Part shown: positions 2,548 through 12,776 of the stretch, in pieces
Numbering within the stretch: the stretch's first letter is position 1
How the letters are laid out: every line of letters begins with the position of its first letter
DNA from: a virus
DNA length: 20,394 nt
Reading direction: 5' to 3' (one strand)
Virus record (IMG/VR): IMGVR_UViG_3300045005_000055
Coordinates: 1 to 20,394 of that record
The notes under the pieces: model-generated
Databases searched by the model: none
What the model was told of the DNA's origin: nothing
Seen by the model: the letters and a program-made list of their open reading frames with translations, nothing else
Position numbers and translations under genes: made by a program

Positions 2548-3231
2548 ATGAATCAATACGTCATTGTCGGCGCGGGTAATTCTTCATTGTCAGTTATTGA
2601 AGACAGTTTGTCCGACCTACCAACGCCAAGAACATTTCACGTCTTGGCGAGGAAAACAAAGGACACTGGTGTTTGCCGTGTATATGATTGGCTTCTTGAC
2701 AACAAAGAAAGATATCTGGCATACCACGACGGTAATGCTCCTGCCATTTTGTGCAAAAATGCTGTGAGTACGATTTGCGATAGCAACGCAGGTCTTGCGA
2801 TGATGAACGCTGCAAAATTGGAAAAGATGACCGTTCTTTATCTGTGGGACGAAAACAACGGCGACAACTCAACTGCGGAGGTGACGTCGTTGATTGACGG
2901 TGGTTTCACCGTCATTGATTTAACACAGGGACTCACTCCGTTTCGTTTAGTTGACACGGTTGAAAACAACACCGTGGATTCTCTTTCTCCTGTGACTCGC
3001 AAAGAGTACGAAGAGATGTCCGATACAGAACTGCGTCAGCAGGCAAAAGCGCAGGGGGCAACCGACAAAGATTTTGCGTCAAAGGAAACCATTATTGATT
3101 TCCTTACCGAGTCGTCAAAAGAAAAAAAGGTTTCTGAAGACGATGCTGTAGTGGTGGTTGTCGTGTTCAAAGACCAAACGACAAAGACGTTCAAAAGCAC
3201 AGTTCACGACATCAACTCTTTCTTCAACTAA
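2548..3231 (+). CDS. Protein of unknown function with glycine-rich N-terminus and SAP/HeH-like segment
   Basis: The 227-residue product has a clear ribosome binding site (AGGAGC, 5 bases before the ATG). The N-terminus YVIVGAGNSSLSVIEDSL has a strand, glycine-rich turn and helix that resemble the start of a Rossmann-like nucleotide-binding fold, and further strands follow (TFHVLAR, TVLYLWDEN, FTVIDLT). Residues about 154-187 (EEMSDTELRQQAKAQG..., ASKETIIDFL) match the pattern of SAP/HeH-type helix-extension-helix motifs, which often bind nucleic acid. Residues 200-227 form a strand (a run of valines) and end in NSFFN. I do not recognise a family. It is the last gene before the non-coding gap and the last of the late group. 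A ligand-binding or nucleic-acid-binding role is inference only. Confidence 0.75.
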   Translation: MNQYVIVGAGNSSLSVIEDSLSDLPTPRTFHVLARKTKDTGVCRVYDWLLDNKERYLAYHDGNAPAILCKNAVSTICDSNAGLAMMNAAKLEKMTVLYLWDENNGDNSTAEVTSLIDGGFTVIDLTQGLTPFRLVDTVENNTVDSLSPVTRKEYEEMSDTELRQQAKAQGATDKDFASKETIIDFLTESSKEKKVSEDDAVVVVVVFKDQTTKTFKSTVHDINSFFN

Positions 3232-3234
3232 AAA

Positions 3235-3290
3235 CACGGGGGGGCTGAAAGCAGAAAGGAGGTAGAAAGGCCTCCAGCCCGCACCCCGTG
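3235..3290 (+). promoter_or_regulatory. Tiered hairpin enclosing an orphan Shine-Dalgarno sequence
   Basis: Three nested perfect stems can be read: CACGGGG (3235-3241) pairs with CCCCGTG (3284-3290), GGGCT (3242-3246) with AGCCC (3276-3280), and GGAGG (3258-3262) with CCTCC (3271-3275). An internal loop of 11 bases on one side and an 8-base apical loop complete it. The inner stem contains AAAGGAGGT (from 3256), a full match to an anti-Shine-Dalgarno tail, but no start codon lies at a usable distance after it. No T-run follows on the + strand, so it is not a standard intrinsic terminator in that direction. It sits between the late genes and the replication genes. Confidence 0.55.
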
Positions 3291-3293
3291 CGG
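3279..3293 (+). promoter_or_regulatory. Alternative hairpin competing with the tiered hairpin
   Basis: CCGCAC (3279-3284), loop CCC, GTGCGG (3288-3293): a perfect 6-bp GC-rich stem. It uses the bases that close the larger structure, so the two cannot form together. CGTTTGG follows, with only three Ts. This is the layout of an attenuator or a switch, though the short loop and weak T-run leave it unproven. Confidence 0.35.
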
Positions 3294-3296
3294 CGT

Positions 3297-3324
3297 TTGG
3301 ACACTACGCCACTATCAGTATAGC
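3297..3324 (+). promoter_or_regulatory. Candidate early promoter
   Basis: TTGGAC at 3297-3302 and TATAGC at 3319-3324 are separated by 16 bases. The -10-like box matches TATAAT at four of six bases; the -35-like box is weak. The position in the only sizeable gap, directly ahead of the replication genes, supports it. The predicted start near 3331 would leave a leader of about 40 bases before the TTG start at 3372. Confidence 0.35.
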
Positions 3325-3331
3325 AAAATGT

Positions 3332-3346
3332 TTGCATATCATGCAA
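3332..3346. promoter_or_regulatory. Palindromic operator candidate
   Basis: TTGCAT-ATC-ATGCAA is a perfect 6-bp inverted repeat with a 3-bp centre. It lies just after the candidate -10 box at 3319-3324, where a bound dimeric repressor would block initiation. I did not notice a second copy elsewhere in the window. The binding protein is unknown; the initiator (autoregulation) or a repressor encoded outside the window are options. Confidence 0.35.
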
Positions 3347-3371
3347 CGACATTAGATACAAAGGACCAACA

Positions 3372-3881
3372 TTGACAAAGAACAAGTTTTCAGGACCATT
3401 CCTACCGTTTCCACGATGGGTTCTTAAGTATTTAGGTAATGATTCAGTTGGCAAAGTGGTATTATTAACCATATTGTTATACATGGATTCTGACACGCAA
3501 GAGGTCACGACTTCGTACGGTCACGTGGCAAAACTGACTGGATATTCCCGACGAACGGTAATTAGAGCGGTCAATCGCCTTGTTTCGTCCAATGTGTTAA
3601 TACGTAAAGTTCGCGTAGGCGCTAAAGGGCAGTTAAGCAATTTGTACGTAGTGAACTTTAACAACCCATCTACCCTAGTGTCACGGGTGACACTACCCAG
3701 TGTCACGGGTGACACCCCTAGGAGTGTCACCACAGACACTACCCCCAGTGTCACGGGTGACACCCAATCAAGAATAACTATAAACAAGAATAACCATAAC
3801 AAGAATCTTCTTTACAAGAGGGGAGAAACAATGAACGATGTAACAAGCGGTTATGAAATTGATGGTGAGTTGCTCAAATGA
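3372..3881 (+). CDS. Replication initiator with winged-helix domain; carries the origin iterons
   Basis: The 169-residue product has a TTG start chosen because AAAGGA lies 7 bases upstream and no ATG or GTG in this frame precedes it after the gap. Residues about 20-96 form a winged-helix domain: VGKVVLLTILLYMDS, VAKLTGYSRRTVIRAVNRLV with the recognition helix near 58-72, then a wing KVRVGAKGQLSNLYVV. This is the type seen at the N-terminus of phage replisome organisers and DnaD/RepA-like initiators. Residues 103-131 are a low-complexity linker (SVTGDT repeats) produced by DNA iterons in the gene, and the tail is Asn/Lys-rich and short. No C-terminal loader-binding domain is present; the next gene may supply it. 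By analogy with lambda O, the product would bind the iterons and recruit the DnaC-like loader and helicase. The family is assigned by pattern, not by a search. Confidence 0.75.
   Translation: MTKNKFSGPFLPFPRWVLKYLGNDSVGKVVLLTILLYMDSDTQEVTTSYGHVAKLTGYSRRTVIRAVNRLVSSNVLIRKVRVGAKGQLSNLYVVNFNNPSTLVSRVTLPSVTGDTPRSVTTDTTPSVTGDTQSRITINKNNHNKNLLYKRGETMNDVTSGYEIDGELLK
3676..3763. repeat. Four palindromic origin iterons
   Basis: GTGTCACGGGTGACAC occurs exactly at 3678-3693, 3700-3715 and 3748-3763. A degenerate copy, GTGTCACCACAGACAC, lies at 3724-3739. Each perfect copy is an inverted repeat of 7-bp arms around GG; the first extends to 9-bp arms (3676-3695). Start-to-start distances are 22, 24 and 24 bp, roughly two helical turns. 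The spacers are C-rich (TACCCA, CCCTAGGA, TACCCCCA). Copy 1 is read as VSRVT and copies 2 and 4 as SVTGDT, so the DNA is conserved in two reading frames. This points to protein-binding sites rather than a peptide repeat. Confidence 0.85.
3764..3820. other. AT-rich region with direct repeats, candidate DNA unwinding element
   Basis: Immediately after the last iteron the sequence becomes A/T-rich, with CAAGAATAAC at 3769-3778 and 3785-3794 and CAAGAATCTT at 3800-3809, spaced 16 and 15 bases. In origins of the lambda type the iterons are followed by an AT-rich segment that melts when the initiator binds. This segment also encodes the Asn/Lys-rich tail of the initiator, so coding constraint does not exclude the origin role. 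Confidence 0.6.
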
Positions 3882-4240
3882 CCGATGATTGGGGCAAGCC
3901 GCTAGGTGCCGACGAAGCCAAAACCATGACAGCAAACATGACAACACAAACAAAGAACACAATCATGGCCCTTGTGTACCATTTTAACAAATCAATTGAC
4001 TATTCAATGAACAGAGAAATAAATGCGTTGGCGCTGTCAAAAACGTTCAAAACGCTCCGCGATAGCGGCACGTCGTACAATGAACTACATTCTATGATTG
4101 ACAGGTTTTTTTACGAAATAAAAAGAAAACCACTACCGCACGACGTTTTGTTGTGGACGGCGTTTATCAAAAGAAAAGACGAATTGCTTACATGGGTTAC
4201 AAAGAATTCTATCAACGGCGACGTGTCGGAGTGGAAATGA
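3878..4240 (+). CDS. Helical protein, probable partner of the initiator
   Basis: The 120-residue product overlaps the initiator stop by ATGA (3878-3881), indicating translational coupling. It is mainly helical after a polar N-terminus: TIMALVYHFNKSIDY, INALALSKTFKTLRDSG, YNELHSMIDRFFYEI, PHDVLLWTAFIKRKDELLTWV. This helix pattern resembles the C-terminal helical region that follows the winged helix in phage replisome organisers. The initiator may therefore be split over two genes, with this part contacting the loader or helicase. That is an inference; I do not recognise a named family. Confidence 0.6.
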   Translation: MTDDWGKPLGADEAKTMTANMTTQTKNTIMALVYHFNKSIDYSMNREINALALSKTFKTLRDSGTSYNELHSMIDRFFYEIKRKPLPHDVLLWTAFIKRKDELLTWVTKNSINGDVSEWK

Positions 4241-4473
4241 GTGCTTGGTGGTTTTTTGTTGAAAAACTCCAGAGGTTTTTTCTTGGTTCAATAGTTGACA
4301 ATGAACCGTTAAAGGAAACAGAAGAAACTGTTGAACTGTATCAATGTATGATGTGCGAAACATTGTTTACCGACAAAGAATCATACCTGATGCATTTTAG
4401 AATGGACACCTGTAACGTCAATCAAGAAGTTCTTCCCAACGACAAATTGGAGATTAGGACAGGATATGACTGA
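4237..4473 (+). CDS. Small C2HC zinc-finger protein
   Basis: The 78-residue product starts at the ATG overlapping the previous stop (ATGA, 4237-4240); an upstream in-frame ATG at 4153 would lie deep in the previous gene. The N-terminus is aromatic (AWWFFVEKLQRFF). Residues 36-59 hold C37-x2-C40-x12-H53-x5-C59 with a hydrophobic pattern (CETLFTDKESYLMHF) like a C2H2-type finger whose last ligand is Cys. This suggests zinc-dependent nucleic-acid or protein binding. It lies between the helical partner and the loader, so a part in replication is likely, but its job is unknown. Confidence 0.65.
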   Translation: MSAWWFFVEKLQRFFLGSIVDNEPLKETEETVELYQCMMCETLFTDKESYLMHFRMDTCNVNQEVLPNDKLEIRTGYD

Positions 4474-5098
4474 GTGGAAAGGAGCACGATACTGGAAGAA
4501 CCGCCCAGTGGAAGAACGTTTGAAAAATGCACGAATACCAAAAAGATTTGAAGCGATGACAATGGAAAACTACGACAAATCTGTTGGCGACCAAGACGTT
4601 CACTACGCCATTATGACGTGGTTAAAACACGCCGACGAAAACCTGTCCAACGGCACAGGTTTGTATTTATTTGGAGGAACTGGAGTAGGAAAAACTCATC
4701 TTTCAATTGGTTTATTAAAACAAGCAGTTGTCTCAAAATCAATCAGCGGATATTTCATCCCCGCTACGACATATATTGAGATGATGTACGATGAGTTGAA
4801 CAATGACGGTTCTCTTCCCGAAGAGTATGCGAGTCCTTATCTTTCAAAGTACATAAGGTCCGTGTATGATTTGGTCGTGCTAGACGGACTGGGTGACGAA
4901 AACGAAACAGAGTTTACCACTCGTTCTATATCCAATCTTTTGTACCAACGAATTAACTCAAATCTTGCCACGGTAATTACCAGTTTGTACAACCCTAAAA
5001 AATTGGGCATTCGTTACGGAGACAGGTTTGTATCCATCATAAGTTCGGCATGCCGACTTGTACCAGTATCGGGGACAGACCAACGCAATGCAAGGTAA
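4466..5098 (+). CDS. DnaC-like helicase loader (AAA+ ATPase)
   Basis: The 210-residue product overlaps the previous gene by 8 bases. The Walker A motif is GGTGVGKT (residues 70-77) and the Walker B motif LVVLDGLGDE (136-145). A sensor-I-like TSLYN lies at 172-176, and SACRLVPVSGTDQR at 194-207 corresponds to the Arg-bearing 'SRL...G.D.R' end of DnaC/DnaI/IstB-type ATPases. The length fits the DnaC family (about 200-250). The N-terminal 60 residues would hold the helicase-binding region. Role: deliver the DnaB-like hexamer encoded at 5519 to DNA opened at the origin. The order initiator, loader, helicase supports it. Confidence 0.88.
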   Translation: MTEWKGARYWKNRPVEERLKNARIPKRFEAMTMENYDKSVGDQDVHYAIMTWLKHADENLSNGTGLYLFGGTGVGKTHLSIGLLKQAVVSKSISGYFIPATTYIEMMYDELNNDGSLPEEYASPYLSKYIRSVYDLVVLDGLGDENETEFTTRSISNLLYQRINSNLATVITSLYNPKKLGIRYGDRFVSIISSACRLVPVSGTDQRNAR

Positions 5099-5519
5099 CG
5101 ACATTGCTGAGTATTCTGTAAAAGGACAGGGTGTCATTTTTGAAGGAGTATTGGCAACGATTCCCGACAAACTTACTTCAAAGTTTTACAAACAACGAAA
5201 CAATTGGGAAAAATATATACAATTGTCTGTACCTCACGAACTTCCGTTGAAGGCAATGATTGATTCGTGCGTTCGTCTTGGCATTTCAACCGACGTTTAC
5301 ACCTTCATTGATGTAGGAGCCACGGACCCGATAGAACGATGGCTGTCAAAAAAAGGAATATCAGTAGCGGTTCACTATTACGAAAACGTTGAGGAATTGG
5401 CATACGATTTAAAATTTCAACGTTCGTTAAAAACCATATACGTTGAAAACCAACAACAGTCAAGTATCATTGGACTTCGTTCTCACGTAGTGGACAAAAA
5501 GAAAGCGTGGATTGCGTAG
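5088..5519 (+). CDS. Unknown protein between loader and helicase
   Basis: The 143-residue product starts at the ATG at 5088, overlapping the loader stop by 11 bases; an earlier in-frame ATG at 5058 would deepen the overlap. The fold looks mixed alpha/beta with alternating strands: GVIFEGVLAT, YIQLSVPH, VYTFIDVGATD, ISVAVHYYEN, LKTIYVENQQQSSIIGL and SHVVDKKKAWI. The rhythm suggests a Rossmann- or HAD-like alpha/beta domain with a conserved-looking 'VHYYENVEELAYDL' and 'YVENQ..S.IIG'. I do not recognise a family or a catalytic motif. Its placement in the replication operon suggests a replisome or nucleotide-related role, which is only context. Confidence 0.65.
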   Translation: MQGNDIAEYSVKGQGVIFEGVLATIPDKLTSKFYKQRNNWEKYIQLSVPHELPLKAMIDSCVRLGISTDVYTFIDVGATDPIERWLSKKGISVAVHYYENVEELAYDLKFQRSLKTIYVENQQQSSIIGLRSHVVDKKKAWIA

Positions 5520-6775
5520 TGGCCAGCACGGAACACTTGATAATCAGCAAAGTCATTAAAGAAAACGAAATCATCCCAGTCATAGAAGCGGGATTGAAAC
5601 CACATCATTTTGCAGCACAGTGGTCGGACATATGGCAGTGGGTCATCACGTATTGGCGTGACCACAGCGCCGTTCCGTCAGAACGGGCGTTCTGTCAGGA
5701 ATACGGAAACGTATCACTACTAGACACATCTCGTGAACAGTTTTCAAACCTCATTGAAGAGTTGATATGTGCATACCGCCATCATAAAATTGTGGAAACT
5801 CTCGCCTCAGCCGTCCCGCTGCTTAATGAAAACGAGACGCAACAAGCAATCAACGTGCTTGCACAAGGCCTGCAAACCGCGTCCGCAGACACATCAAGAT
5901 TGAGAGACATCAACCTCATTGAAACGTGGGAACAGCGCATTGCACGCTATTTGTTGATGAAAGACACCCCCAACGCAATTCGCGGAATGCCCACTGGTTT
6001 TTTAGGACTGGACAGGATTACGTCGGGTTTGCGTCCTCAACAATTGATTACGTTGGTTGGCGAAGCGAAAAAAGGAAAGTCTCTCATTACACTCATAATT
6101 TCTAATGCCGTGCACAATCACGGCAAGGTTCCCCTCTACATCTCTTTTGAGATGAGTGCAGAGGAACAATCGGCGCGGTACGACGCAATAGTTTCCAAAA
6201 TCTCACACACCAAATTGATGCGCGGCGACCTCACTAATTTAGAAATTGAAAAAATACGAAAATCAACTTTTTTACGCAAAAACATGCACCCGTTCATTAT
6301 CTCTGAAGACATATCGTCACTCACAACAGTGAGCGCAATCGCAGGGAAACTACAGCAGCACAAACCAGACCTGCTCGTGGTTGACGGAGTTTATCTCATG
6401 GACGACGAACATGGCGAACCAAAGGGTTCCCCGCAAGCGTTGACCAACATAACACGTTCATTGAAAAGATTGGCTCAACGCTACGACATTCCAATTGTCG
6501 GTACTACGCAGGTGCTTAGTTGGAAATTGGGCAACCGCAAGAGCAGGCAAATCACCGCCGATGCGATTGGTTATACGTCGTCGTTTGCACAAGACTCCGA
6601 TTTGGTCATCGGCGTAGAGTCAGACCCCGACATAGACGACCAGGCAATTTTGCGCGTCGTACTTGCCCGAACAGCGCCAAAGGGAGAAATCAGGATTAAA
6701 TGGGACTGGAACAACATGGATTTTTCAGAGATAGAGGAAGTTCACAACGATGAAAATGATAACTGGTACTACTAA
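5519..6775 (+). CDS. DnaB-like replicative DNA helicase
   Basis: The 418-residue product starts at the GTG of TAGTG, overlapping the previous stop by one base; a GTG at 5507 (four more residues) is the alternative. It has the RecA-fold core of DnaB helicases: Walker A GEAKKGKS at 181-188, a helicase Glu in YISFEMS (E211), Walker B LLVVDG at 285-290 and the motif GTTQVL at 328-333. The N-terminal 120 residues match the small helical DnaB N domain in size and pattern (EHLIISKVI..., IWQWVITYW). It would unwind the fork 5' to 3' as a hexamer, with the loader (4466) and primase (6750) as partners. The length is close to a typical DnaB (about 450). Confidence 0.92.
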   Translation: MASTEHLIISKVIKENEIIPVIEAGLKPHHFAAQWSDIWQWVITYWRDHSAVPSERAFCQEYGNVSLLDTSREQFSNLIEELICAYRHHKIVETLASAVPLLNENETQQAINVLAQGLQTASADTSRLRDINLIETWEQRIARYLLMKDTPNAIRGMPTGFLGLDRITSGLRPQQLITLVGEAKKGKSLITLIISNAVHNHGKVPLYISFEMSAEEQSARYDAIVSKISHTKLMRGDLTNLEIEKIRKSTFLRKNMHPFIISEDISSLTTVSAIAGKLQQHKPDLLVVDGVYLMDDEHGEPKGSPQALTNITRSLKRLAQRYDIPIVGTTQVLSWKLGNRKSRQITADAIGYTSSFAQDSDLVIGVESDPDIDDQAILRVVLARTAPKGEIRIKWDWNNMDFSEIEEVHNDENDNWYY

Positions 6776-7673
6776 CATCCGCGATGTTCTCGCGGCACTA
6801 GACGTTGAAGTCAAAAGGGAATCAAACAATGAAATAACTGGTTGTTGCCCTGTACACGAAAAAAGAATTGGCAAACCAGACCGTTCTCCCTCATGGTCAA
6901 TAAACTCTAACACTGGTTTATGGATGTGCCACTCGTGCGGGGCACGGGGAAACTTGCCGCAACTGATTGCCGAAATAACAGGAAGTTACGAATCAGTATC
7001 AAGCGTTTACAGTCTGATGATTAATAGTGGGATTAAAAAACTCACAGAACAATCACAAACGGTTGGGGACAAAACCGCAGCAAATTGGAAATTGTATATG
7101 TCTTTTGACAAACCACCACAAGAAGAATTGGAAAAGCGCAGATTAAAGGCATCGGTTGCCGACAAGTACGGTATCCGATGGAGCACGTCAAGCAGCGCGT
7201 GGATTATCCCAATAGTTTCACGCAACGGAATTTTGATGGGATGGCAAGAGAAACACAAAAACAAAGTTATCAACCAACCACGTGGAGTACACAAATCAGA
7301 AACATTGTTTGGCATTGACAGATTTTCTTCACGTGTTGCCGTTTTGGTAGAGTCGCCCCTGGATGTTGTAAGGTTTTCTTCGTCATTTAACGGGATACAA
7401 TGCCTCGCTAGTTATGGAGTTGGCATCAGTAAAACACAGTTACGATTGTTGGAAGAGTCTTGTGACGCATTGATTGTGGCATACGACAATGACGCGGCTG
7501 GTGAGGCGGGTGGTACAGTACTAATGCGGCATCTTCCGTCGTTCAGACATGGGGTGAAATGGTTGAAGTACTCTCACACAAAAGCCAAAGACATTGGAGA
7601 AATGGACGATTCGGAATTGGCAATTGCGGTAAAACAAGCAACGGCACTACCATGGTGGATTGATGGCGTTTAA
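6750..7673 (+). CDS. DnaG-like primase (zinc-binding plus Toprim)
   Basis: The 307-residue product overlaps the helicase end. The N-terminal zinc domain shows C32/C33-x-H36 (CCPVH) and C60-x2-C63 (CHSCGARGNL), the layout of CHC2-type primase zinc fingers. The Toprim core has LVESPLD with E201 and D205, and AYDNDAAGE with D246 and D248. It is about half the length of E. coli DnaG and lacks a separate helicase-binding C-terminal domain, as is common in phages. It would make RNA primers for the family A polymerase. GAGGAAG about 10 bases upstream can serve as ribosome binding site. Confidence 0.88.
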   Translation: MKMITGTTNIRDVLAALDVEVKRESNNEITGCCPVHEKRIGKPDRSPSWSINSNTGLWMCHSCGARGNLPQLIAEITGSYESVSSVYSLMINSGIKKLTEQSQTVGDKTAANWKLYMSFDKPPQEELEKRRLKASVADKYGIRWSTSSSAWIIPIVSRNGILMGWQEKHKNKVINQPRGVHKSETLFGIDRFSSRVAVLVESPLDVVRFSSSFNGIQCLASYGVGISKTQLRLLEESCDALIVAYDNDAAGEAGGTVLMRHLPSFRHGVKWLKYSHTKAKDIGEMDDSELAIAVKQATALPWWIDGV

Positions 7674-9210
7674 AGGAAAGTTGTATCCGTTTCAAGAAGA
7701 AGCGCGAGAAAAAATGACCGACCGAGGTCGTATGCTACTCGCGGTGGTGATGGGCGGCGGAAAAACGGTTATTACTTTGAACACGTTGGAACACTTGATT
7801 GACATTGGCGAAATATCGCGGGCCGCCATTGTCGTTCCAGCAGCACTCAAATACCAGTGGTTGCGCGAAATAAGCAAGTTTACCAATTCAAAAGCAGTGG
7901 TGATTGACGGTAACTCAAAAACAAGGGAAACTTTGTGGAGGTCGGCCCTTCGCGCCAAATACGTTGTTGTAAATCCTGAGACCCTCATTAACGACGTTCA
8001 TTTGTTCAATTCGTTAAGATTTGAAGCCATGGTGATTGACGAAGCAACGATGATTAAATCACCAAGAGCCAAGCGTTCGCGGTTGCTAAAAAAACTAGGT
8101 AAAAAATGCCAATACCGTTTTGCTCTTACTGGACAACCCATTGAAAACAAACCAGAAGAATTGTTTTCCATTATGGAATTTGTGGATGCAAACGTGCTGG
8201 GAAAGTTTGACATGTTTGACAAGACCTTCATAGTCCGCGACAAGTTTGGTAGACCGCTGCGGTATCGCAATTTAAACCTGTTGAACAAATCAATGGAAAA
8301 AGCAATGGTTCGCAAAAACCGAAAAGACATTGAAGACCAACTTCCTAAAATAGTATCAACCGTTGTTCCCGTTCAGTTTGACGATAAAAACGTTCAAGCA
8401 TATAGAAACATTTCAAATGATTTGTTGTTGCAAATACAAAAAGCCGTAAACATTCACGGCAAAAGTTTTGATTTGTGGACGCACTATCACGGAAACGCCG
8501 CCGCCCACGAAGCACAAGGGCAAATAATGGCACGCCTTACAATATTGCGAATGCTGTGCGGCAACCCAATGCTTGTGGAGTTGTCGGCAACACAATACGC
8601 CAATAACAACGGGGACGCAGGAAGCAGGTACGCCAAAGAAGTGATGGATATGCAATGGTTGACTAAACCATTCAACACGCCTAAAATGGATGTTGTTATT
8701 GAGTATATTACGGACATTTTAAACGAAGACCCCAACAACAAAATAGTGTTATTTTCGTTCTTTAAAAACAATCTTAAACTCCTCGCAGAGCGCATTAAAC
8801 AGCAAACATCGTGCGTATTGTTTACAGGAGACATGAACGCATCAGAAAAAGACGTGGCAAAACAAATGTTTACCACCGACCCCAATACCCGTTTGTTTTT
8901 ATCCTCTGATGCTGGCGGCTACGGCGTTGACTTACCACAAGCCAACTACCTAATATCGTATGATTTACCGTGGAGTGCAGGAAAATTGGACCAGCGAGAA
9001 GCGAGAATTATTCGCCTATCCTCACAACACCCCCATGTTACGATAACATCATTCGTTATGAAAGGAAGTGTTGAAGAACGCCAGTACGAAATGCTTCAAC
9101 AAAAAAGAGGAATCAACGAAGCATTCATTGACAAAGGCTACGATACACAAGGTAGATTTGAACTAACACTGAGTTCATTGACAGATTTTTTACAACATTC
9201 GGAGGTATGA
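7663..9210 (+). CDS. SNF2-type superfamily 2 helicase/ATPase
   Basis: The 515-residue product starts at the ATG at 7663, overlapping the primase stop (the in-frame TTG at 7660 is less likely). N-terminal RecA domain: motif Ia region YPFQEEA, Walker A MGGGKT (30-35), DEAT (126-129) and LTGQPIENKPEEL (155-167), the last typical of SNF2 proteins. C-terminal domain: VLFSFFKNN, LFTGDMN, motif V SSDAGGYGVDL (414-424) and motif VI QREARIIRL (444-452). The size fits minimal phage SNF2 ATPases (about 450-550). Such enzymes translocate on dsDNA and are used in recombination or fork remodelling. Here it sits between the primase and the SSB and polymerase genes. Confidence 0.88.
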   Translation: MAFKGKLYPFQEEAREKMTDRGRMLLAVVMGGGKTVITLNTLEHLIDIGEISRAAIVVPAALKYQWLREISKFTNSKAVVIDGNSKTRETLWRSALRAKYVVVNPETLINDVHLFNSLRFEAMVIDEATMIKSPRAKRSRLLKKLGKKCQYRFALTGQPIENKPEELFSIMEFVDANVLGKFDMFDKTFIVRDKFGRPLRYRNLNLLNKSMEKAMVRKNRKDIEDQLPKIVSTVVPVQFDDKNVQAYRNISNDLLLQIQKAVNIHGKSFDLWTHYHGNAAAHEAQGQIMARLTILRMLCGNPMLVELSATQYANNNGDAGSRYAKEVMDMQWLTKPFNTPKMDVVIEYITDILNEDPNNKIVLFSFFKNNLKLLAERIKQQTSCVLFTGDMNASEKDVAKQMFTTDPNTRLFLSSDAGGYGVDLPQANYLISYDLPWSAGKLDQREARIIRLSSQHPHVTITSFVMKGSVEERQYEMLQQKRGINEAFIDKGYDTQGRFELTLSSLTDFLQHSEV

Positions 9211-9607: not shown

Positions 9608-10032
9608 AAGACCCATTGGAATTGTTTAAAAACATCCCTGATTTCCCTGGCAAGAGAACCCCAAAAAACAGGCAAAAAAGAAACACAGCAATTGCAGAAG
9701 ACCGTTTTAACGGTGCAAAATCCAAAAAATACATCATTAACGGGCAAGAAGTACACATGTTTACAATTGGACAATTGGCGGTTGCATTGCAAAAAAGCCC
9801 CTCAACATTGAGGGTGTGGGAATTTCGTGGTTGGCTTCCAAAGGCCAAGTACCGCACCCCAAAACCCGTCAAACAACAACTTCCAGAAAAACCCTCAAAA
9901 GGTAGGAGGCTTTACAGCATGGAGCAGGTAGAGTTCCTTGTAGAAGCAATAGACCGTTTCAAAATACACGACATTCACAATGCAGATTGGAACGGTTTCA
10001 GAAAACACATTAAAGAGCAATGGCCACAGTAA
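9604..10032 (+). CDS. MerR-like helix-turn-helix protein
   Basis: The 142-residue product starts at the GTG overlapping the previous stop (GTGA, 9604-9607). Residues 53-80 hold a MerR-type helix-turn-helix (FTIGQLAVALQKSPSTLRVW, then EFRGWLPK), and residues 101-112 read RRLYSMEQVEFL, the typical second-helix motif of MerR and excisionase-type DNA-binding domains. Between them is a Lys/Pro-rich insert (85-99) that lengthens the usual wing. The N-terminus is basic and probably flexible. There is no visible effector-binding domain. It could regulate phage transcription or act as an architectural DNA-binding factor in replication. Confidence 0.7.
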   Translation: MKDPLELFKNIPDFPGKRTPKNRQKRNTAIAEDRFNGAKSKKYIINGQEVHMFTIGQLAVALQKSPSTLRVWEFRGWLPKAKYRTPKPVKQQLPEKPSKGRRLYSMEQVEFLVEAIDRFKIHDIHNADWNGFRKHIKEQWPQ

Positions 10033-10049
10033 ACACAAAGGAAAAAAAC

Positions 10050-10712
10050 ATGCCCAGAAACTATGACACAGACGAGATGACACCCAACACCGAACAGGAC
10101 AGTCCCGCCGCACCGACCAACGAGCGCAAACTCCTTCGCGGAGGATGGCAGCAGGTTGACGCATTGAAAAGCCTTGACTCCAACTACGCACAGCGTCTCA
10201 AGGTTGGTGAGGACGTTCAAATCATAAAATTCATTGATGACGAACCGTACGCGGCTTGGCACCAACACTGGATTGAGCGCGACGGACATAAATCGTTTGT
10301 CTGCATCCGTGAGTTGGAAGAACGCGGTTGCCCGATTTGCGAACTTGGAAACCGCCCCTCCCAGCGCGTTGCGTTCAACGTCGCACTGCTTTCCACTGGT
10401 TCAACGCCGACGCTGCGTTCACTGGAAATCGGACCTCGCGTCGTAGACCAACTCCGCAACCTTAACAAGGCTCCGCAAACTGGACCCCTTACCAAGCATT
10501 ATTGGGCTATCAGCCGCACTGGTAAGGGAGCAACAACGTCCTACAACCTGCAAGTCATTCGTGAGCGTGACATTGCCGAAGAATGGAAGATTGAACCCAT
10601 TTCTGAGACGGTTTTTTCAAAAATCAAGGAAGAGAAATATGATTCGTCAATCATCAAAGTTCCTACGTACTCAGAACTTTTGGCGATTGCATCTGAAGAC
10701 CTTGGTAACTAA
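10050..10712 (+). CDS. gp32-like single-stranded DNA-binding protein with zinc site
   Basis: The 220-residue product starts at the ATG at 10050 because AAAGGA lies 7 bases upstream; the in-frame ATG at 10020 lies inside the previous gene without such a site. Residues 71-97 hold H71/H73, C85 and C94-x2-C97 (CPICELG), close in spacing to the zinc site known for T4 gp32 (H-x12-C-x9-C-x2-C), followed by RVAFNVALL, a strand typical of the gp32-like OB fold. The N-terminus is polar and the C-terminus is mildly acidic (LLAIASEDLGN). Position directly before the DNA polymerase supports the role: coating ssDNA at forks and in recombination. Confidence 0.75.
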   Translation: MPRNYDTDEMTPNTEQDSPAAPTNERKLLRGGWQQVDALKSLDSNYAQRLKVGEDVQIIKFIDDEPYAAWHQHWIERDGHKSFVCIRELEERGCPICELGNRPSQRVAFNVALLSTGSTPTLRSLEIGPRVVDQLRNLNKAPQTGPLTKHYWAISRTGKGATTSYNLQVIRERDIAEEWKIEPISETVFSKIKEEKYDSSIIKVPTYSELLAIASEDLGN

Positions 10713-10715
10713 TAA

Positions 10716-12776
10716 ATGGGGAGTTTAGTTCCTCCTGTTGTTACAACGTTTGAACAACTTGACGAACTCATTGAGATAGTTCGCAGGGTGGGGGCGTTTG
10801 TTTTTGACGTGGAAACCCAAGCCACGCTAGAACACCACCCCGACCTCATAGAACACTTTGAAAAGGATTTTAAAGAACACGTAAGCGGATTAAAGAACAA
10901 GAGTCCCGACATTGTTCAACGCGCACACGACAATTTGACGGATAAATACCTGAAGAATATTGTTGTCAATCCTCTTCGCAACGAAGTTTTTTGGATAGGT
11001 ATAGCAACCAGCGGCAGGTCGTGGGCAATACCAATGGGACACCGTGTTGGAATATTGGTGGAAAAAGAGGAGATTGGAGACGGGAGCACCGTACCACCAG
11101 CAGGTTTTCGCAAGGTTTTAAAAAACGGGCAAGAGTCAATGGCAAAGGCACGGTATGTAAAGCCCGCCGTGTACAAAGACCCGCCTAAACAACTTTCTCG
11201 CAGTGATGTTTTTGAACGTCTGCGTCCGTTGTTTTTTAGCGACATTATCAAAATAGGGCACAATGTTAAATTTGATGCAAGGTCAATAGCAAAGTATTAC
11301 GGAGAAGTGCCGCCTGGTCCGTATGTGGATACGATGATTACACAACACGTGGTAAATGAGAATTTGATTAACTATTCGTTAGAAACATTGATTGAAACAA
11401 ATTACGGTGGGCACAAAGCCTACGAAAACGGCGGAAAATTAGGGAACCTGGTTTCCACTTCTCCATTTGATTCAACAGCGTTGTATGTACACCGTGATGC
11501 ACGATGGACTTGGTTGTTGTACAAAAAGTTAATTCAAAAAGTTGTCGCCCATAAGGACCTAATCAGGGCAATGGAATTGGACAACCGTGTATTGGAAGTG
11601 TTGATGCATGTGGAGAACGAGGGCATTCCCGTTGACTCCAGTAATTTGGTTGCTTTGGGCGTTGAACTAGACAAAGAACTGCAAGATGTTCTTAACTCAC
11701 TCCTGCACTACGCCCCTTTTGGCTTTAATCCAGACTCTAATAAACATAAGCAGGATTTTTTGTTTTCTAAAAAAACAAACGGTGGGTTGGGTTTAAAGCC
11801 CTACAAAACCACAGGTAAAGGGGCACCGTCAGTAGACGAAGAATCATTAAAAAGTTTGAAACACAAGCACCCAGTAGTCCCCATGTTATTGACGTGGGCA
11901 GAGTTGAAAAAATTAAAAAGTACATACGTAGACGGATTGCTGCCAAAACTTTATAAAAACAGGCTTCACCCGTCATTCCACCTGCACCGCACCGCCACTG
12001 GACGACTGTCGTCATCAGACCCTAACCTCCAAAACATCCCCAGAACATCCAACATTCGTAAATTGTTCGTGGCAAATAAAGACAACGTGCTGCTGGTTGC
12101 CGACTACGACCAAATTGAACTTCGTATCATGGCAATGTTTAGCCAAGACAAAAGGTTGTTGCACACGTTTGCAAACGAAGAGGACATCCACACGGCCACC
12201 GCATCGGCAGTGTTTAAAAAGAAACCAGGAGAAATAACCGCAGAAGAACGACAAATAGGAAAGGGAGTAAATTTCCTAACTGCCTACGGCGGCGGCTCTG
12301 TAAAACTATCTCGCGTAACGGGAATCTCTGAAAGAGACGCGCAAGAAATACTAAATAACTACTACAGAACGTTTTCTGAACTTACAAGTTGGAAACGTGT
12401 TTTGGTAGAGAAAGCAAAAAAAGACGGGTTTGTCAGTACTTTGTACGGTAGACGAAGACGTCTTCCTGACCTATTGTCAAAGGACAAAGAACTGCGTGCA
12501 CGTGCCGAACGACAAGCAGTTAACGCCATAGTTCAAGGAACTGCGGCAGACCTGTGTAAACAAGCAATGGTTGACGTGTACAGCGCAATGAAGAATACGA
12601 GTGTAAAATTAGTAGTGCAGGTTCACGACGAGTTAGTGGCTACGGTAGATGAACACGAATCGGCACAAATAATTACTCCGTTCCTAGAGGCAATGGGAGA
12701 CGGTAAAATAATAGATAAGGTTCCAATTAAAGTTTCGTACCAGTTTGCAAAGAGTTGGGCGGAAGCAAAGGAATGA
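10716..12776 (+). CDS. Family A DNA polymerase with 3'-5' exonuclease
   Basis: The 686-residue product follows tandem TAA stops. Exonuclease motifs: Exo I FVFDVET (D31, E33), Exo II IGHNVKFDA (D187) and Exo III YVHRDARW (Y257, D261). Polymerase motifs: A VADYDQIELR (D463), B R512, K516, N519, F520 and Y524 in QIGKGVNFLTAYGG, and C QVHDEL (H637, D638, E639). Phe at 520 is the E. coli Pol I-type residue at the nucleotide-selection site. No 5'-3' nuclease domain is present, as in many phage enzymes. Exo I and Exo II are about 155 residues apart, far more than in E. coli Pol I, so the exonuclease domain carries an insertion (roughly residues 40-150). It is the replicative polymerase. Confidence 0.95.
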   Translation: MGSLVPPVVTTFEQLDELIEIVRRVGAFVFDVETQATLEHHPDLIEHFEKDFKEHVSGLKNKSPDIVQRAHDNLTDKYLKNIVVNPLRNEVFWIGIATSGRSWAIPMGHRVGILVEKEEIGDGSTVPPAGFRKVLKNGQESMAKARYVKPAVYKDPPKQLSRSDVFERLRPLFFSDIIKIGHNVKFDARSIAKYYGEVPPGPYVDTMITQHVVNENLINYSLETLIETNYGGHKAYENGGKLGNLVSTSPFDSTALYVHRDARWTWLLYKKLIQKVVAHKDLIRAMELDNRVLEVLMHVENEGIPVDSSNLVALGVELDKELQDVLNSLLHYAPFGFNPDSNKHKQDFLFSKKTNGGLGLKPYKTTGKGAPSVDEESLKSLKHKHPVVPMLLTWAELKKLKSTYVDGLLPKLYKNRLHPSFHLHRTATGRLSSSDPNLQNIPRTSNIRKLFVANKDNVLLVADYDQIELRIMAMFSQDKRLLHTFANEEDIHTATASAVFKKKPGEITAEERQIGKGVNFLTAYGGGSVKLSRVTGISERDAQEILNNYYRTFSELTSWKRVLVEKAKKDGFVSTLYGRRRRLPDLLSKDKELRARAERQAVNAIVQGTAADLCKQAMVDVYSAMKNTSVKLVVQVHDELVATVDEHESAQIITPFLEAMGDGKIIDKVPIKVSYQFAKSWAEAKE

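Follow-up and report, generated by a model that had tools for sequence, protein, structure and literature searches.

In phage lambda, four iterons, which are inverted repeats that bind dimers of the O protein, adjoin a 40-bp A+T-rich region (PMC5043065, PMC7466680). Origin oriL of Bacillus phage SPP1 lies in gene 38 and contains direct repeats and an AT-rich unwinding element, gp39 being the loader and gp40 the helicase (PMC6316719). ORF20 of phage 80alpha is thought to carry the phage origin likewise. In plasmid pSK41 (RepA_N), four Rep boxes are located centrally in the rep gene, where they encode a dispensable linker that follows the winged-helix domain (PMC5703833), and the Rep protein of pPR9 has an N-terminal domain of family HTH_36 (pfam13730) that resembles a phage replication protein (PMC5703833).

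For uncultivated phages the replication origin is seldom known. We studied an IMG/VR record of a freshwater phage, the whole of which (20,394 bp) is referred to here as the window, and by comparison alone placed its candidate origin to a region of ∼150 bp inside the gene of a putative initiator. The features of this gene are as follows.

3372-3881, plus strand: initiator gene, 169 aa, TTG start; HTH_36 winged helix, predicted disordered linker and short C-terminal tail
3549-3587, plus strand: predicted recognition-helix codons, residues 60-72, RRTVIRAVNRLVS; from the secondary structure of the model and the helix/half-site table
3678-3693: iteron 1, GTGTC-ACGGGT-GACAC, codon frame A
3700-3715: iteron 2, GTGTC-ACGGGT-GACAC, codon frame B
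3724-3739: iteron 3, GTGTC-ACCACA-GACAC (GTGTCACCACAGACAC), codon frame B; both arms intact
3748-3763: iteron 4, GTGTC-ACGGGT-GACAC, codon frame B
3759-3776, plus strand: box GACACCCAATCAAGAATA, which joins iteron 4 to the AT-rich stretch and has a GACACCCAA core
3764 to about 3818: AT-rich stretch, candidate unwinding element; A-rich coding strand, 16-bp repeats at 3766 and 3782

The product of gene 3372-3881 matches Pfam HTH_36 (E 6e-8) and PHROGs 270, 428, 678 and 391 ('replication initiation / O-like'; E 2e-12 to 2e-8). Its AlphaFold model is confident for approximately residues 11-100, which form the winged helix, and has a pLDDT below 50 at residues 102-165, so that the linker encoded by the iterons is predicted to be disordered. 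Among solved structures searched by sequence no initiator was found, only weak matches of the MarR/SlyA/CodY type, and the matches of a Foldseek search, all at E 0.001 or above, were to generic winged helices, TubR and Rep proteins. In GTDB genomes, homologues were limited to two fragments (10 and 19 residues matched), which provide neither a host assignment nor a sign of prophages of this lineage.

The palindrome GTGTCACGGGTGACAC is present in three exact copies (at 3678, 3700 and 3748) and one changed copy (at 3724), all of them within ORF 3372-3881 and downstream of the winged-helix codons, with start-to-start spacings of 22, 24 and 24 bp. When up to three mismatches were allowed and both strands were counted, 7 matches were observed, versus a mean of 0.12 (largest 1) in 100 shuffles, and no further such palindromic site was found elsewhere in the 20,394-bp record. 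An earlier reading of this DNA, made from the sequence only, had described three exact copies and one changed copy in the initiator gene, and with ∼0.1 matches expected by chance this description is borne out. It had also placed copy 1 in another codon frame than copies 2 to 4, and indeed iteron 1 is read as GTG TCA CGG GTG ACA C (frame A) and iterons 2 to 4 as AGT GTC ACG GGT GAC ACC (frame B; letters of the exact copies).

In 21 IMG/VR relatives of the initiator gene the arms GTGTC and GACAC are kept, with free variation of the six intervening bases; for instance, GTGTC-TGTGGA-GACAC and GTGTC-TGCACA-GACAC are found at one place. A wider search with the HTH domain alone gave 80 loci and 52 distinct relatives with an intact array region. 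The 211 units of these 52 distinct arrays follow the rule GTGWC-N6-GWCAC; each array has at least four units (five in 3/52), almost always 22-25 bp apart. Relatives with the same peptide and without the repeats were looked for among the 52, as had been proposed as a check, and none was found. As the unit definition used for these arm statistics tolerates at most one arm mismatch, the information content of the arms is partly circular, a flaw from which a de novo search and the synonymous-codon analysis described below are free. The de novo search made no assumption about the half-site beyond a length of five bases and a 6-bp centre; in nearly all complete loci its result was GTGTC or GTGAC, and in lineage L161 it was GTATC, normally in four copies. 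Thus, the array noted earlier stands, and the 16-bp unit as then drawn needs a small correction: only its outer arms are conserved across the 52 arrays. It follows that the copy at 3724, which had been called degenerate, is intact, both its arms being perfect, and that the 2-bp GG centre is no rule, since the centre and the inner AC/GT vary among relatives.

The rule derived from these arrays, that is GTGWC-N6-GWCAC in about four copies 22-25 bp apart, in the codons after an HTH_36 domain and followed by an A-rich stretch, picks out initiator genes in a blind search of a large viral collection. When IMG/VR was scanned for pairs of spaced GTGTC-N6-GACAC units, at least 119 stretches were obtained, and none with a letter-permuted control; many of these stretches are near-duplicates, yet very divergent initiators are included. 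Among the matches listed, 117 have a spanning ORF, of which 85 match HTH_36 and 83 match the O-like phrog_678. Relatives of 43-98 kb have mostly four or five GTGWC-N6-GWCAC sites at the initiator and zero to three elsewhere; the contig of L161 (which is also that of L019) has none because its arms have changed. In another relative, L162, a single iteron is present (3296-3460), consistent with deletion of the 70 bp between iterons 1 and 4. This puts the C-terminus out of frame; the deletion may have arisen through the repeats or be an artefact of assembly, and in the former case it would be a natural test of the required number of iterons. We found no description of the GTGWC-N6-GWCAC motif in the open-licence literature, and blastn of the origin DNA against cultured phages gave no match.

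Several lines of evidence bear on whether the DNA or the peptide is conserved. The frames of successive copies in the 52 arrays follow the patterns ABBB (21), BBAB (18), AABB (6), ABBA (4), AAABB (2) and BBBAB (1), so that one and the same DNA unit is translated as VSxxT or VTxDT, at places that differ between clades. Among 14 close relatives, mean synonymous-codon identity is 0.54 for the HTH part (0.55 and 0.52 in its two parts) and 0.55 in the next gene, versus 0.82 in the iteron codons and 0.93 in codons 132-149 (Mann-Whitney p 7e-12). These last codons, which are those of the AT-rich stretch, are the most constrained DNA of the initiator gene. Aspartate codons are GAC rather than GAT in a ratio of 171:6 in the linker, versus 168:163 elsewhere. 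Finally, nearly every clade retains the GACACCCAA core of the box linking iteron 4 with the AT-rich stretch, including clades that read this core in another frame, and an AAGA-type word mostly follows it. Together these comparisons argue that selection acts on the DNA of the iterons and of their AT-rich neighbour, a conclusion that we consider well supported and that agrees with what had been proposed from the single sequence. The frame changes between clades constitute a clean natural demonstration that a DNA function overrides the linker peptide.

The AT-rich stretch with its 16-bp repeat had escaped the sequence-only reading. Positions 3764-3823 are 68% A+T, compared with a window mean of 56%, and in the relatives the 60 bp after iteron 4 have a mean of 65.5% A+T, versus 53.5% upstream in the gene. 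The coding strand of the stretch has 49% A and 17% T. The enrichment is moderate: ∼5% of 60-bp windows are equally rich, and a few relatives are hardly richer here than in the rest of the gene. By its position and kind the stretch is a candidate for the unwinding element that would be expected there, as in lambda (PMC5043065).

One lineage provides a hint of how the half-sites may be read. In L161 the left arms are GTATC in 4/4 units and the right arms GATAC in 3/4. In frame B this change replaces Val by Ile on one side and is a silent change of GAC to GAT on the other, a pattern that a symmetric DNA site would explain and a peptide would not. Residue 61, early in the predicted recognition helix (60-72), is Ile in the L161 protein. 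In L219, with Thr61, the arms are a mix of G and A. G is retained in all 50 arrays that have Arg or Ser61, bar one extra flanking unit in L183. Residue 61 of the initiator covaries with half-site position 3 in this helix/half-site table, and related cultured phages with RRSV helices have GTGCA or GTGAA half-sites. Two lineages are a small number, but the pattern is the one to be expected if the initiator read the half-site directly, and it yields a concrete prediction of how origins change specificity. We tentatively extend it, at somewhat less than even chances, to an origin code shared by divergent phage HTH_36 initiators, in which a GTG-led half-site would have its bases set by a few recognition-helix residues. 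An equally tentative form of the code would be that Arg or Ser61 specifies GTGWC and Ile61 specifies GTATC, and that Thr61 tolerates both. If such a code were true, the origin and the origin-specificity group of uncultivated phages would be predictable from sequence alone, and a swap of helix residues would swap the choice of origin.

The genes that follow the initiator are listed below.

3878-4240, plus strand: conserved 120-aa gene, family not assigned, between initiator and loader
4466-5098, plus strand: DnaC-like helicase loader (phrog_50, E 2e-32)
5507-6775, plus strand: DnaB-like replicative helicase (Pfam DnaB_C, E 3e-29; phrog_19, E 3e-61)
6750-7673, plus strand: DNA primase (phrog_47, E 3e-34; Zn_ribbon_DnaG and Toprim)
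7660-9210: putative helicase, named from its sequence
10020-10712: SSB-like protein
10716-12776: family A DNA polymerase

The gene order from initiator to helicase recurs in all nine relatives examined (9/9). In agreement with the earlier annotation, the winged-helix gene thus has loader and helicase genes downstream, as judged by the HTH_36, phrog_50 and DnaB_C/phrog_19 matches. The loader gene had been said to follow directly; however, the conserved gene 3878-4240 intervenes. Its product has no Pfam match, and only weak matches to PHROGs of unknown function. Genes of this type encode ∼120-130 aa with an N-terminal DDWG-type motif, and an equivalent ORF follows the initiator in the nine relatives; the product may be a primosome adaptor. 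A search for sigma-70-like promoters around the initiator gene gave nothing convincing. Between the upstream gene and the replication operon, at 3235-3311, are strong GC-rich hairpins with no T tract on the plus strand (RNA fold of 3228-3371, z-score -3.7), which are perhaps a processing site or a boundary element. The closest cultured helicases are those of Streptomyces phages GiJojo and BRock (∼33% identity), in which loader, helicase, primase and helicase genes have the same order. No O-like gene or palindromic array was found near their loader gene (L249, L250, L251, L252), and the initiation step may have been exchanged in these phages.

The best reading of these data is that the locus is very probably a theta origin of the lambda O type, embedded in the gene of its own initiator. 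This kind of origin had already been proposed, and the iterons, the O-like PHROG matches, the AT-rich neighbour and the replication gene order all support it. From these features we infer how initiation would proceed. The winged-helix N-terminal domain would bind as a dimer to each GTGWC-N6-GWCAC palindrome, with one recognition helix per half-site; the two-fold symmetry of the sites agrees with the earlier suggestion of a dimer per iteron. Four dimers would then draw the DNA together into an O-some-like complex, and the resulting strain would open the A-rich stretch beside the iterons. The tail of the initiator, possibly with the small protein encoded by 3878-4240, would deliver the phage DnaC-like loader with the DnaB-like helicase, after which the phage primase and polymerase would act. 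As the peptide encoded by the origin would be only a disordered linker, its DNA would be free to be optimised in any frame. GC skew was considered as independent evidence for the origin and was uninformative: no switch is seen at the site in any of four relatives 87-98 kb long.

Three other explanations were weighed against an in-gene origin. The repeats might have arisen only because a repetitive linker peptide (SVTGDT) was selected, and three of the four copies here do encode a similar SVT-x-DT peptide. Against this, every relative has one to three copies in frame A, which reads VSxxT, and there are several frame patterns; synonymous sites hardly vary and codon usage is biased; the linker is predicted to be disordered; and a kept peptide with recoded DNA was seen in 0/52 relatives. 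We therefore give this explanation next to no chance. The palindromes might instead be operators, through which the initiator would autoregulate the operon or block transcription as a roadblock, with the origin located elsewhere. Repression is indeed the most frequent role of winged-helix proteins that bind palindromes, MarR-type regulators are among the best Foldseek neighbours, beside TubR and Rep proteins, and binding alone cannot separate an operator from an origin. The sites, however, are located ∼300 bp inside the gene, away from the position of a promoter, and a search of the window, the region upstream of the gene included, showed no second set of sites. Moreover, the AT-rich neighbour is more constrained than the sites themselves, for which an operator has no need, and both the replication gene context and the O-like families favour an origin. 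The operator explanation is consequently unlikely.

The remaining alternative accepts an origin and assigns it, as the sequence-only reading had suggested on account of the palindromic GG-centred unit, to a class distinct from lambda O. In its favour, the half-site and 6-bp centre found here (GTGWC-N6-GWCAC) are unlike the TCCCT-N7-AGGGA of lambda, whose half-site is TCCCT and whose centre is 7 bp. In addition, the initiator lacks the large C-terminal domain of lambda O and would serve a phage DnaC-like loader and a phage DnaB, whereas lambda P uses the host DnaB. But each lambda iteron is an inverted repeat, too, to which a dimer binds, and our measurements of the lambda array gave two-fold symmetry, spacings of 20, 24 and 23 bp (22, 24 and 24 bp in our locus) and mixed codon frames. 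Both origins are situated in the initiator gene after the N-terminal DNA-binding domain, with four inverted-repeat iterons, an A-rich stretch downstream for unwinding (a candidate in the present case) and the loader gene in the same operon. Thus spacing, number, in-gene position, mixed frames and AT-rich neighbour all match lambda. Furthermore, a half-site almost identical to ours, with N5 as the centre, occurs in two cultured lambdoid phages, mEp044 and mEp554. A distinct class is accordingly highly improbable, and a lambda-O-type origin remains our reading. Its kind is already known; new here are its breadth across dozens of uncultivated phages, the arm/centre rule and the testable link between helix and half-site.

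With respect to the protein, no match to the C-terminal domain of lambda O, which binds P, was found in the initiator, which stops after a short tail of ∼38 residues; this makes it lambda-O-like and not an O orthologue across its whole length. PHROGs 678, 391 and 345 are common to the initiator and lambda O. A direct hhalign of the initiator family against the single lambda O sequence was negative, and the kinship rests on these shared families and on mEp044. By its shared PHROG families the initiator belongs to the O-like group, and it would work in the manner of lambda O. The O genes of Escherichia phages mEp044 and mEp554 are matched by tblastn (E 4e-6 and 7e-5), and the mEp044 O protein also by hhalign (97%, E 1e-11). 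Like the present locus, these genes contain four GTGWC palindromes at 22-23 bp in mixed frames; unlike it, the palindromes have a 5-bp centre (GTGWC-N5-GWCAC), the O protein is longer and the phages are lambdoid with a cI repressor gene. Units of the GTGCA or GTGAA type are found at the same place in Pseudomonas phage PseuP_222 and a Vibrio phage. In initiator genes of cultured phages (L145, L254, L255, L256), GTG-led palindromes with a 5-bp centre were observed (GTGTC, GTGAC, GTGCA, GTGAA), which suggests that a half-site vocabulary is shared between these initiators and the family with the 6-bp centre.

The comparison extends to less closely related systems. SPP1 resembles the present locus, by its arrangement, in having repeats and an AT-rich element inside the gene of the origin-binding protein (gp38), together with a loader and a helicase, and differs from it by a second origin, oriR. 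No close sequence match to plasmids was found. The N-terminal domain of RepA_N proteins (PF06970) is not present in the initiator, which has HTH_36 instead. pSK41 and pPR9 are staphylococcal plasmids, and the Rep protein of pSK41 has a C-terminal primase-binding domain. Nevertheless, the N-terminal domain of pPR9 Rep belongs to the same Pfam family as that of the initiator, and the predicted disorder of the iteron-encoded linker fits pSK41 Rep, whose origin-encoded segment can be deleted (PMC5703833).
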